The notes below the pieces were generated by a model. It did not search any database and had not been told where the DNA came from. It saw nothing but the letters and a program-made list of their open reading frames with translations. A stretch of DNA of 64,000 nucleotides from Rhodobacter sp. SY28-1. GTDB taxonomy: Bacteria > Pseudomonadota > Alphaproteobacteria > Rhodobacterales > Rhodobacteraceae. The stretch is from NCBI RefSeq assembly GCF_005222785.1, contig NZ_STGH01000003.1:248001-312000 (forward strand), written 5' to 3'. Positions 60,245 through 64,000 of this stretch are shown in pieces. Numbering within the stretch: the stretch's first letter is position 1; each line of letters opens with the position of its first letter. Both the position numbers and the translations under genes were made by a program.

Positions 60245-61273
60245 ATGACCCATCGCATCGCCATCCTCGGGGCCTCGGGCTATACGGGGGCGGAGCTTGT
60301 CCGCCTGATCGCGACGCATCCGTCGATGCAGATCGTGGCGCTGTCGGCCGACCGCAAGGCGGGGATGGCGATGGCGGAGGTGTTTCCCTTCCTGCGGCAT
60401 CTGGACTTGCCCAAGCTGGTAAAGATCGACGAGATCGATTTCGCCGGGGTTGACCTGTGCTTTTGCGCGCTGCCGCATGCGACGACGCAGGAGGTGATCG
60501 CCAAGCTGCCGAAGACGCTGCGGATCGTCGACCTTTCGGCGGACTTCCGGCTGCGCGACCCGGCGGAATACGAGAAGTGGTACGGCCAGCCGCACACGGC
60601 GGTGGAGATCCAGAAGGAGGCAGTCTACGGGCTGACCGAGTTCTACCGCGACGAGATCAGGGCCGCTCGGCTGGTGGCGGGCACGGGCTGCAACGCGGCG
60701 ACGGGGCAGTTCGCGCTGCGGCCCTTGATCGCGGCGGGCTGCATCGACCTGGACGACATCCTGATCGACCTGAAGGCCGGGGTGTCCGGCGCGGGGCGGT
60801 CGCTGAAGGAGAACCTGCTTCACGCGGAATTGTCCGGGGGCACGCATGCCTATTCGGCGGGCGGAAAGCATCGGCATCTGGGCGAGTTCGACCAGGAGTT
60901 TTCCAAGGTCGCTGGGCGGCCCGTGCGGGTGCAGTTCACGCCGCATCTTCTGCCGATGAACCGGGGGATACTCGCGACGGTCTATGTGAAAGGCGATGCG
61001 AAGGTCGTCCATCAGACGCTTGAAAAGGCGTATGAAAGCGAGCCGTTCCTGCAGGTTCTGCCCTTTGGATCACTGCCCTCGACCCGCGACATTGCGGGGT
61101 CGAACTTCTGCCATCTGGGAGTGATCGGCGACCGGGTTCCGGGCCGCGCTGTGGTGGTTTCCGTGCTGGACAACCTGACCAAGGGATCGTCTGGGCAGGC
61201 AATCCAGAACGCGAACCTGATGCTGGGACTGCCCGAGACGGAAGGGTTGATGCTGGCGCCGGTGTTCCCCTGA
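60245..61273 (+). CDS. argC: N-acetyl-gamma-glutamyl-phosphate reductase
   Basis: Third step of arginine synthesis. 342 residues from the ATG at 60245; upstream in-frame codons are not conserved-looking. N-terminal Rossmann motif [20 protein letters not shown], the catalytic Cys149 in [17 protein letters not shown], and the family segments [20 protein letters not shown] and [16 protein letters not shown]. It is the type 1 enzyme of about 345 residues. It sits 94 bases before the ccmE gene and probably forms a unit with it only loosely. Confidence 0.96.
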
Positions 61274-61376
61274 TGCCGGTCTGAAGCCCGGCTTGCGGGA
61301 TGTGGGACTTGACGCGGGTCAAGGCGTGCCCACCTTGGGTCTGGCAAGGGTTGCCTGACGGCAGAGGATGCGGGTG

Positions 61377-61859
61377 ATGAGCGGCAAGACGGAATTCCGG
61401 GGTCTCAAGGGGCTGAAGAAGCAACGGCGCATCCAGATCATCGCGCTGGCGGCGGTGGCCCTGATCGGGGCGACGGGGCTGGTCGGCTATGCCATGCGCG
61501 ACGGGATCAACTTCTTCCGCTCTCCCAGCCAGGTGATGGAAGCGCCCCCCGCGCCGGGCGAGACGTTCCGGATCGGCGGGCTGGTCGTCGACGGGTCAAT
61601 CGTGCGCGGCGCGGGCACCGAGGTTTCCTTTGCGGTCACCGACACCAATGCGACAGTGCCGGTTCGCTATACCGGCATCCTGCCGGACCTCTTTGCCGAA
61701 GGGCAGGGGATGGTGGCGCTGGGGCGCATGGAGGGCGATACGTTCGTTGCGACCGAAGTGCTGGCCAAGCATGACGAGACCTACATGCCGAAGGAAGTGG
61801 TCGACGCGCTGAAGGAGCAGGGCGTCTACGTCGATCCGAACGCCAAGCCGGAAAGCTGA
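61377..61859 (+). CDS. ccmE: Cytochrome c maturation haem chaperone CcmE
   Basis: 160 residues from the ATG at 61377, nine bases after GAGG; an earlier ATG at 61368 abuts that site. One N-terminal membrane anchor (IIALAAVALIGATGLVGYAM) and a periplasmic OB domain (FRIGGLVVDGSIVRGAGTEV, VRYTGILPDLFAEGQGMVAL). The covalent haem ligand is His132 in LAKHDETYMPKEV with Tyr136. The other ccm genes are elsewhere, as in many alphaproteobacteria where ccmE is detached from the cluster. Confidence 0.95.
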   Translation: MSGKTEFRGLKGLKKQRRIQIIALAAVALIGATGLVGYAMRDGINFFRSPSQVMEAPPAPGETFRIGGLVVDGSIVRGAGTEVSFAVTDTNATVPVRYTGILPDLFAEGQGMVALGRMEGDTFVATEVLAKHDETYMPKEVVDALKEQGVYVDPNAKPES

Positions 61860-61882
61860 GCGCGCGCTGCCGAAGGGCGGCG

Positions 61883-61897
61883 TTAATGGTACTTTGC
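61883..61897 (+). promoter_or_regulatory. Partial CtrA-like site before the endolysin gene
   Basis: TTAA-N7-TTGC, one perfect half and one half with two mismatches to TTAA-N7-TTAA. CtrA and GafA activate gene-transfer-agent lysis genes in Rhodobacter, so a weak site here is plausible but unproven. Confidence 0.3.
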
Positions 61898-61929
61898 GAG
61901 GCTTCCCCCGGGTTTGAGCGGGGGTGCCG

Positions 61930-62541
61930 ATGCCGGATGTTCGTCAGATAGCCGAAGAGATCGTGAGCCGCGAGGGCGGCTTCGTGAATGACCCGGACGA
62001 TCCGGGTGGGGCGACCAATCACGGGGTGACCATCGGGACGTTGCGGCGGCTGGGGATCGACGTGAACCGCGACACGCGGATCGATGTGGCCGATGTGAAG
62101 GCTCTGACCCGGAAACAGGCGGTCGAGATCTATCTGAAGCACTATTTCGAGGGGCCGGGGATCGCGGCGCTGCCCGAGGTGCTGCAGGCGAGTGTCTTCG
62201 ACATGTACGTCAATGCCGGCGGGAACGCAGTGAAGATCCTGCAGCGCTTGCTGTCGGACATGGGCTTTCCCTGTGACCCGGATGGCGCCATCGGGCCGCA
62301 GACGATCCGGGCGGCGCAGATGGCCTATGAGGCGGCGCCGTCGCATCTGCCGGATGCCTACGGGATCGCGCGGCGGAACTACTATTATGCGCTTGCCGAC
62401 AAGCGACCGGCGAGCCGGAAGTTCGCCCGGGCGCGGGATGGCGGCAAGGGGGGCTGGATCAAGCGGGCAGAGGAGTTCATCTCTCCGAAATATCACCTGA
62501 CCGAGGCGCAGCACCGGGCGCGGGTGTCGGCATGGGGATGA
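61930..62541 (+). CDS. GTA-type endolysin (N-acetylmuramidase, GH108-like)
   Basis: 203 residues from the ATG at 61930. The catalytic Glu15 lies in VSREGGFVNDPDDPGGATNH, the EGGxxxxxxDxGGxT signature of glycosyl hydrolase 108; PDGAIGPQTIRAAQMAYEAA resembles the peptidoglycan-binding C-part of these holin-partnered muramidases. No signal peptide, as for holin-dependent lysins. Its end overlaps the holin start by ten bases. The pair corresponds to the detached lysis genes of the Rhodobacter gene transfer agent. Confidence 0.85.
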   Translation: MPDVRQIAEEIVSREGGFVNDPDDPGGATNHGVTIGTLRRLGIDVNRDTRIDVADVKALTRKQAVEIYLKHYFEGPGIAALPEVLQASVFDMYVNAGGNAVKILQRLLSDMGFPCDPDGAIGPQTIRAAQMAYEAAPSHLPDAYGIARRNYYYALADKRPASRKFARARDGGKGGWIKRAEEFISPKYHLTEAQHRARVSAWG

Positions 62542-63005
62542 TCGGCAAGCTCGTTGGTGCTCCGGGCGCGGTGACGGCGCTGGGCGAGGCGGCGAAGGGG
62601 GTGGCAGAGGTCTTCGTGCCCAGTTCCACCAAGCGGATGGAACTGTCGGCGGACGCGCAGATGGCGGCGCTGCGGCAGTTGGGGGAGGAGTACCAACACC
62701 CAGCGCTGTCCTGGTTCGACCGGCTGGTGAACGGGTTGAACCGTTTGCCGCGGCCGTTCCTGGCCTTCGGGACCATCGGGCTTTTCGTCTATGCGATGGT
62801 GGACCCGCAGGCCTTTGCCTTCCGGATGGTGGGGCTGAACGCGGTGCCCGAGCCCTTGTGGTGGCTCTTGGGCGCGATTGTCGCCTTCTACTTCGGGGCG
62901 AGGGAGACGCATTACTTCCGCAACCGGGCGGTGGTGTCCCCCTTTGCCGGATCGGCGGCGGAGCCGGAGGAGAACGCGGCGCTGGAGGAGTGGCGGCGGG
63001 GCTGA
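62532..63005 (+). CDS. GTA-type holin (three-helix, gene-transfer release)
   Basis: 157 residues. After an amphipathic leader (GMIGKLVGAPGAVTALGEAA) and a polar segment with YQHPALSWFDRLVNGLNRLP, two or three hydrophobic helices follow (FLAFGTIGLFVYAMVDPQAF, LWWLLGAIVAFYFGARETHY), matching the 3TM GTA holin family. A charged tail ends the protein. It overlaps the endolysin gene and is 57 bases before argS. It would form pores that release the endolysin to the wall. Confidence 0.85.
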   Translation: MGMIGKLVGAPGAVTALGEAAKGVAEVFVPSSTKRMELSADAQMAALRQLGEEYQHPALSWFDRLVNGLNRLPRPFLAFGTIGLFVYAMVDPQAFAFRMVGLNAVPEPLWWLLGAIVAFYFGARETHYFRNRAVVSPFAGSAAEPEENAALEEWRRG

Positions 63006-63062
63006 AGCTTGACCTCTGATCGGGCCTCTGGCATGGCCATGGGCATCAGAGGATGTGATCAA

Positions 63063-64000
63063 ATGAACCTGTTCGCCGATATCCGTGAGCTTGTGGTGGC
63101 CGAGCTGGAGGCGTTGATGGCCTCGGGCGTATTGCCGTCGGGGCTGGACCTGTCTGCCGTCGCGGTCGAGCCGCCGCGCGATGCGGGGCATGGCGAGATG
63201 GCGACCAATGCGGCGATGGTGCTGGCGAAACCGGCGGGGATGCAGCCTCGGGCGATTGCGGACGCGCTGGCGTTGCGGCTGATGGAGGACCCGCGCGTGG
63301 CGGGGGCCGATGTCGCGGGGCCGGGGTTCCTGAACCTGCGGCTGGAGCCTGCGGCCTGGCAGGGGCTGGTGCGGGCGGTGCTGGAGCAGGGGACGGGCTA
63401 TGGCCGGTCCGTCATGGGTGCGGGGCGCAAGGTCAACGTCGAGTTCGTGAGCGCGAACCCCACGGGTCCGATGCATGTGGCCCATGCCCGGGGCGCCGTG
63501 GTGGGAGATGCGCTGGCGGCGCTCTTGGACTTCGCAGGCTATGCGGTCACGCGCGAGTATTACATCAACGATGGCGGCGGGCAGGTCGATGTGCTGGCCC
63601 GGTCGGCCTTTGAGCGGTATCGCGAGGCGCATGGGCTTAGCCCCGAGATCGCCGAGGGGCTGTATCCGGGGGATTACCTGATCCCGGTGGGTGAGGCGCT
63701 GAAGGCCAAGTATGGCGACAGCCTGCTGAATCAGCCGGAAAGCGTCTGGCTTGCGGATGTGCGGGTGTTTTCCACCGACATGATGATGGCGATGATCCGC
63801 GAGGATCTGGCCGCGCTGGGCGTCAAGATGGATGTCTATTCCTCGGAGAAGGCGCTTTACGGCACGGGCCAGATCGAAGCGGCGATCGAGCGGTTGAAGG
63901 GGCTGGGGCTGATCTATCAGGGCGTGCTGGAGCCGCCGAAGGGCAAGGCGCCCGAGGATTGGGAGCCGCGGGAGCAGACGCTGTTCCGCTCGACCTCGTT
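63063..64000 (+). CDS. argS: Arginyl-tRNA synthetase, N-terminal part (3' end outside window)
   Basis: Class I synthetase charging tRNA-Arg. About 312 residues are present. The N-terminal tRNA-binding domain ([38 protein letters not shown]) leads to the catalytic core with the HIGH-like HVAHARGA in [20 protein letters not shown] and [14 protein letters not shown], both diagnostic of ArgS. The KMSK loop is beyond the edge. It follows the holin in the same direction. Confidence 0.96.

Follow-up and report, generated by a model that had tools for sequence, protein, structure and literature searches.

The window, that is the whole stretch of 64,000 nucleotides analysed here, corresponds to C3:248001-312000 in the assembly of Rhodobacter sp. 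SY28-1 (4.28 Mb, 11 contigs). Close to its end, an endolysin gene and a holin gene are located behind a short leader with several sequence elements (Table 1). The reading frames of the two genes overlap by 10 bases, and an alternative in-frame start of the endolysin (GTG) is present at 61924. The endolysin matched the equivalog model NF040573 with 359.7 bits (cut-off 240), GH108 with 92 bits and PG_binding_3 with 79.2 bits. Its EGG motif, the Glu of which we take to be catalytic, could be aligned in the two solved relatives shown; a signal peptide of the endolysin was not seen by eye. In the whole genome, GH108 and PF11351 were each matched once. The first-pass annotation had described a GH108-like endolysin and an overlapping holin of the gene transfer agent (GTA) family, flanked by ccmE and argS; its coordinates were exact, and the scores lie far above the curated cut-offs. 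It had further called the holin three-helical. Membership in PF11351, whose family name includes 3TM, was confirmed, but as to helix number hydropathy gave just two modest peaks (residues 72-90 and 99-123, maximum 1.46 over 19 residues).

Table 1. Genes and leader elements at the lysis cassette, in window coordinates.
Feature	Position	Strand	Basis
ccmE, co-directional upstream neighbour	61368..61859	+	PF03100 115.3 bits; NF009731 222.3 bits, cut-off 152
GTTAA, CtrA half-site (TTAA 61883-61886, 47 bases before ATG)	61882..61886	+	conservation in relatives
GAGGCT, local counterpart of conserved CAGnCT element	61898..61903	+	fixed spacing to TTAA in relatives
Hairpin over Shine-Dalgarno region, pairs 61900-61902/61926-61928 and 61905-61910/61919-61924	61900..61928	+	predicted fold, -18.9 kcal/mol
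Endolysin, GH108 and PG_binding_3, holin-associated N-acetylmuramidase	61930..62541	+	family matches
Holin, GTA_holin_3TM family	62532..63005	+	PF11351 98.8 bits, cut-off 24.8
argS, outside cassette, runs past window end	63063..63998	+	open reading frame, start ATG 63063

The genes argC, ccmE and argS near the cassette are housekeeping genes. An 8-base inverted repeat (CCTCTGAT/ATCAGAGG) was noticed in the window at 63013-63052, immediately 5' of argS. ccmE is also listed, in the accessible part of PMC9765227, among 14 gene families with a translational-efficiency trend that tracks GTA genes.

Head-tail genes were searched from g2 to g15. A GTA head-tail cluster with open frames for g2-g15 was found on the same contig at C3 ~16.4-30.1 kb, approximately 280 kb from the cassette. 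Hence the cassette is detached from any capsid cluster locally, as had been claimed, but a cluster does exist on the contig. Family matches were obtained for terminase, portal, protease, HK97 capsid, connector, head completion, tail completion, tail tube, distal tail, hub, NlpC peptidase and g15, the latter by GTA_TIM (C3:27483-28364, 484.8 bits). The frame of g10 in the NCBIfam scan and that of g11 in the Pfam scan were without family match; both were assigned by their position and by relatives that the cluster of genus G065 contains. A GafA homologue (DUF6456, 212.5 bits) is encoded at C3:768 kb and CtrA (NF045991, 432.8 bits, cut-off 350) at C3:461 kb. The sequence TTAAC-N6-GTAAC begins 69 bases 5' of the gafA start codon GTG; a similar CtrA site is reported for R. 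capsulatus gafA in the available text of PMC6363796. Capsid cluster, gafA and ctrA, for which a genome search had been proposed, are thus all present on one contig. Together with the CtrA-type site before gafA, they support the earlier suggestion that the host may make gene transfer agents, and from these sequences we strongly infer that it does. A second capsid-like protein (G000:C3:77214-78185), 36% identical to the GTA capsid and ~47 kb from the GTA cluster, perhaps belongs to a separate prophage.

Relatives of the endolysin were collected by a contig scan, which returned at least 567; loci were kept for the best 80 of these at least 567. Among these best 80 loci, a holin relative lies directly 3' of the endolysin in 79 (exception L050), ccmE directly 5' in 71 and argS within 1.5 kb downstream in 33, all counts being lower bounds as some loci end early. 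The address is therefore old on its ccmE side and, on the side of argS, confined to a subgroup. For a family survey, 150 genomes of at least 90% completeness were searched, each from a different genus. The endolysin equivalog NF040573 passed in 125 genera, GTA_TIM in 130, the holin in 126 and GafA in 137. Endolysin and holin were both found in 124 genera, neither in 23 and one alone in 3; the corresponding numbers were 123, 11 and 16 for endolysin and GafA, and 117, 12 and 21 for endolysin and GTA_TIM (odds ratio 13.5). In 14 control genomes, Caulobacter vibrioides included, PF05838, PF11351 and NF040573 had zero matches. Five genera (G042, G048, G075, G079, G096) carry two endolysins over the cut-off and two holin matches. 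Since both genes are doubled there, the pair seems to have been duplicated as a unit. The endolysin copies L089 (G048), L098 (G079) and L114 (G042) are without ccmE upstream. Conversely, a GTA capsid without an NF040573 endolysin over the cut-off was found in 12 genera (G004, G018, G035, G043, G049, G076, G087, G092, G112, G120, G134, G141); in these, particles are therefore released by another route or not at all.

GH108 endolysins are common in phages, and the pair might be a prophage or phage-remnant lysis module that landed between housekeeping genes and is unconnected with a GTA. Indeed, 587 phage records matched the endolysin, which fits the phage family phrog_315 (117.5 bits), and the holin weakly fits phrog_3427 (E 0.007). 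However, the phage endolysin matches were all less than 60% identical (at most ~35% among the 20 matches listed), and phage records matching the holin were absent at E 1. Closer likeness to a prophage pair, which the first-pass annotation had named as contrary evidence, was looked for and not seen: the closest relatives of both genes are not in phages. On the distance of the phage records and the conserved neighbourhood (ccmE directly upstream in 71/80 best loci, the equivalog in 125/150 genera), a prophage origin was rejected as highly improbable.

The partial CtrA-like site noted earlier upstream of the pair proved to be a half-site that is conserved in relatives. TTAA lies no more than 80 bases from the endolysin start in 133 of the 142 related loci that have ccmE upstream and in 22 of the 26 that lack it (168 loci, 158 distinct leaders). 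Restricted to the 121 leaders directly behind ccmE, which were drawn from 141 loci, TTAA is present in 101 (composition shuffles: mean 19, maximum 30), and TTAAC or GTTAA in 94 (shuffle mean 9.5), mostly 43-59 bases 5' of the start codon. The spaced element TTA-N12-CAG was found in 53 of the 158 leaders vs 1.3 in dinucleotide shuffles. GAGGCT in the window is a possible -10 region; a sigma-70 scan found no site. CtrA half-sites in the R. capsulatus lysis promoter are already published (PMC9638019, in the portion available), and GafA binds that promoter according to the accessible part of PMC6363796.

A GH108 equivalog with an adjacent PF11351 holin, a head-tail cluster, gafA and ctrA, and a half-site, which mark a cassette of the RcGTA type, were thus all found. 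The pair is almost certainly a holin-endolysin cassette of the rcc00555/556 type of an RcGTA-like GTA, a known kind that lies away from the head-tail cluster; this identity together with a role in lysis and release is very probable. If R. capsulatus is a guide, CtrA and GafA would switch on the GTA cluster and the cassette in a few stationary-phase cells. The holin would then permeabilise the inner membrane, the GH108 muramidase would reach the wall, the cell would burst and the particles would leave. The pair marks the host as a probable GTA maker, in which the GTA release genes have become resident host genes next to ccmE.

The leader between the TTAA/CAG block and the endolysin start codon can fold into a hairpin in the family as well as in the window. 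Taken alone, the hairpin of the window is unexceptional (z -1.18; 26/200 shuffles equally stable, 40/200 for a 91-base piece), and a shortened leader refolds into a different hairpin of -13.5 kcal/mol. Across 118 leaders, the mean folding z, computed for the 45 bases before the start codon together with the codon itself, was -2.07, vs -0.11, -0.31, -0.32, -0.16 and -0.30 in five control windows; leaders of argS were also low (mean z -1.00, 39 loci). The control window at the argC start begins 9 bases inside the gene and gave zero usable rows for the opening cost described below. The longest stem had on average 7.7 pairs vs 5.5 in shuffled sequences (109 leaders). Among these 109 leaders, 102 distinct 3' arms were counted, and 83 of the 109 contain a tetramer resembling a Shine-Dalgarno sequence, a count made without a control. 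When 5' halves were swapped between loci, the fold weakened from -17.4 kcal/mol (native) to -12.4 kcal/mol and was weaker in 95/109 cases (p 5e-17, p-values being rough as the leader sequences are related by descent); the same swap in the adjacent control window of 30 had no effect. Because the arms vary and swapping weakens the fold, the sequence appears to drift while complementarity is kept. For the family of leaders, a hairpin that includes the ribosome-binding site and shows compensatory change was thereby found.

Other searches for structure were negative. Stems of at least 4 pairs near the start were present in 117/121 leaders and in 91% of shuffles, so this count does not discriminate. 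RNAalifold on a MAFFT alignment of 44 leaders gave no common pair, and the covariance model built from it was without structure; we read this as misregister of the alignment, because the arms differ in sequence and spacing. Known RNA families were not matched at E 1 in 61300-63200, and a simple scan found no intrinsic terminators in 61200-63200. A covarying hairpin over an endolysin ribosome-binding site was not found in the limited open-licence literature, so novelty is claimed tentatively.

The strength of the hairpin depends on the upstream gene. Mean z was -1.95 with ccmE upstream (133 leaders) vs -0.51 with a divergent neighbour (14 leaders; p 3e-4). Behind other co-directional genes it was -2.54 where the gene is close by (4 leaders) and -1.16 where it is distant (6 leaders); non-ccmE co-directional and divergent leaders differed with p 0.012. 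For this comparison a crude codon score served to call the upstream genes, L141 was excluded and identical leaders were counted once. A hairpin that is strong behind a co-directional gene and near background behind a divergent one is what protection against read-through predicts. Opening the region -15..+3 was calculated to cost 14.25 kcal/mol when the leader is long vs 7.46 kcal/mol when it starts at -22 (114 leaders); the long and short values were 7.24 and 5.10 for argS leaders (39), and within the gene they were 8.91 and 8.14 (121). In a read-through RNA from ccmE, the endolysin ribosome-binding site would be held in the hairpin. An RNA started at the promoter of the cassette itself, which would lie beside or within the 5' arm, could not form the hairpin and would be translated. 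We slightly favour this reading of the hairpin as a fail-safe guard against accidental endolysin expression by ccmE read-through. Both the transcript start inside the hairpin and the guard function are predicted from the leaders, and the conserved TTAA-N11-CAG block just upstream agrees with such a start. If true, the guard explains how a lethal gene can lie 70 bases behind a housekeeping gene.

The inverted repeat could instead act at the DNA level, as the binding site of a dimeric regulator, GafA for example, and not as an RNA structure. GafA is dimeric (PMC9638019, as stated in the part available) and binds the lysis promoter as cited above (PMC6363796). A protein site, however, should keep its sequence, while the 3' arms are nearly all distinct (102/109) with their halves still complementary, and leaders with a divergent upstream gene have a weak repeat; a regulator site is thus improbable.

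The cassette is not confined to genomes with a capsid. With the capsid of the window genome as query (E 1e-20, full length), 22 of 125 endolysin-bearing genera were without a full-length GTA-type capsid match. Three of these were placed in the class by hand: G064 and G130, whose best matches are 36-37% identical, and G031, which has a fragment with a stop; partial or broken capsids in G056, G063, G105 and G108 were counted as present. A baseplate hub over the cut-off was found in 3 of the 22 (G003, G012, G102) and was absent in 19. GafA was retained in 21 of the 22 genera, and likewise the holin. Endolysin profile scores were alike (median 348.9 capsid-less vs 351.7 capsid-bearing, p 0.78). 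TTAA was present in 17 of the 21 scored capsid-less leaders (mean z -2.49; the G088 stretch covers the end of the gene alone and was left out) and in 34 of 38 capsid-bearing control leaders (mean z -1.89). Four of the 22 assemblies are single contigs (G003, G050, G111, G128), and some capsids may be unassembled, since 5/22 assemblies have at least 300 contigs. Moreover, the endolysin occurs without GTA_TIM in 8/150 genera. Given endolysins without TIM (8) or capsid (22) and capsids without endolysin (12), the cassette is not strictly tied to the particle.

From this it might be argued that the cassette serves the host as an independent lysis device under GafA and CtrA, for example for release of DNA or vesicles, with GTA release as one use. 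The 22 capsid-less genera would fit, with GafA and holin kept, endolysin scores undiminished, and half-site and hairpin persisting. Against this, the capsid losses may be recent, the fragmented assemblies mentioned above weaken the count, and disruption of rcc00555 in R. capsulatus lowers gene transfer and lets particles accumulate inside the cells (Hynes et al. 2012, via the accessible part of PMC3423380). We consider an independent host device rather unlikely next to a cassette for GTA release. An intact endolysin in capsid-less genera was not found described in the limited open-licence literature. Since the lysis gene and its leader are retained without capsids, it can be tested whether the host gains from GTA lysis beyond gene transfer.

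In 12 genera, GTA_TIM was matched by its last third alone, from profile position 203-213. In the 10 readable genera (loci L178-L187: G050, G064, G127, G038, G085, G095, G124, G130, G072, G126), the terminase runs to residue ~186 and continues in frame into g15 from ~640, with the same junction codon; in L188 (G028) and L189 (G140) the contigs begin at the junction. The terminase part retains two motifs, presumably Walker A and W.DE. Both flanks are as in the cluster of the window genome in 8/10 (G064 downstream only, G126 upstream only). The chimera is open over its full length in 8 genera (827-878 codons) and to the contig end in G126; in G050 it is broken. In four complete clusters the junction sites are ~11.1-11.3 kb apart. 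The endolysin was kept in 11 of the 12 genera (all but G095). pN/pS, calculated with synonymous sites near saturation, was alike in the two groups: 0.386 in chimeras (9) vs 0.373 in complete clusters (20-21) for g2, and 0.527 (9) vs 0.526 (20-21) for g15. In trees, from which monophyly was judged with many weak forks and bootstrap not settled, chimeras were scattered among complete clusters: G038 grouped with G067 (97/94, g2 tree), G064 with G047 and G008 (100/100, g15 tree), and G095 with the long branch G029 in the g15 tree (97/91), but not in the g2 tree. Chimeras also grouped with each other in the g15 tree (G130, G127, G072 and G140, 84/84; G085 and G124, 96/96).

Because the chimeras are scattered, the same ~11 kb deletion either recurs or has spread as an allele by recombination. 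Deletion via long repeats was considered and is unsupported; 2-4 identical bases were found at the junction (four complete clusters, the site being misplaced in two). Three further genera have GTA clusters decayed in other ways: G003 (L191) has a different g2-g15 joint and a GTA_TIM with a stop, in G031 (L192) g2 through part of g5 is left, and G065 (L193) retains g2 through some of g12 and, in addition, the end of g15. It is a tentative and rather doubtful proposal that the GTA of the chimera genera was reduced to a regulated self-lysis system without particles, in which the chimera, GafA and the holin-endolysin pair were kept along with half-site and hairpin guard, with the same-junction deletion recurrent or recombination-spread. 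If it holds, a GTA was possibly worn away by the very DNA exchange that it serves. GTA 'cheater' lineages and a deletion bias have been discussed in print (PMC10883770, in the part available); such a terminase-g15 fusion was not found in the limited open-licence literature.

Among known systems, Caulobacter crescentus resembles the present case in that its GTA uses lysis by genes other than core-cluster holin-endolysin genes (LypABC). It differs in that holin-endolysin homologues are absent there according to its authors, in the accessible text of PMC13236601. Likeness to RcGTA rcc00555 (endolysin) and rcc00556 (holin) is closer: the pair is apart from the head-tail cluster, a half-site is present in the promoter, and gafA and ctrA accompany it. 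This likeness is drawn from families and published descriptions, and activity in the present host is predicted. For the leader, the counterpart is the lysozyme gene e of phage T4, with which no sequence kinship is claimed. There, according to the available part of PMC3014915 (see also PMC2988022, likewise available in part), a hairpin holds the ribosome-binding site in a longer, upstream-started RNA, and the promoter is located at the 5' arm. Both are thus lysis genes with the ribosome-binding site in a hairpin of the read-through RNA, a function that was measured in T4 and is predicted here. They differ in their switch: in T4 it is late phage transcription, whereas here CtrA/GafA would act as the switch, with read-through arriving from the host gene ccmE.
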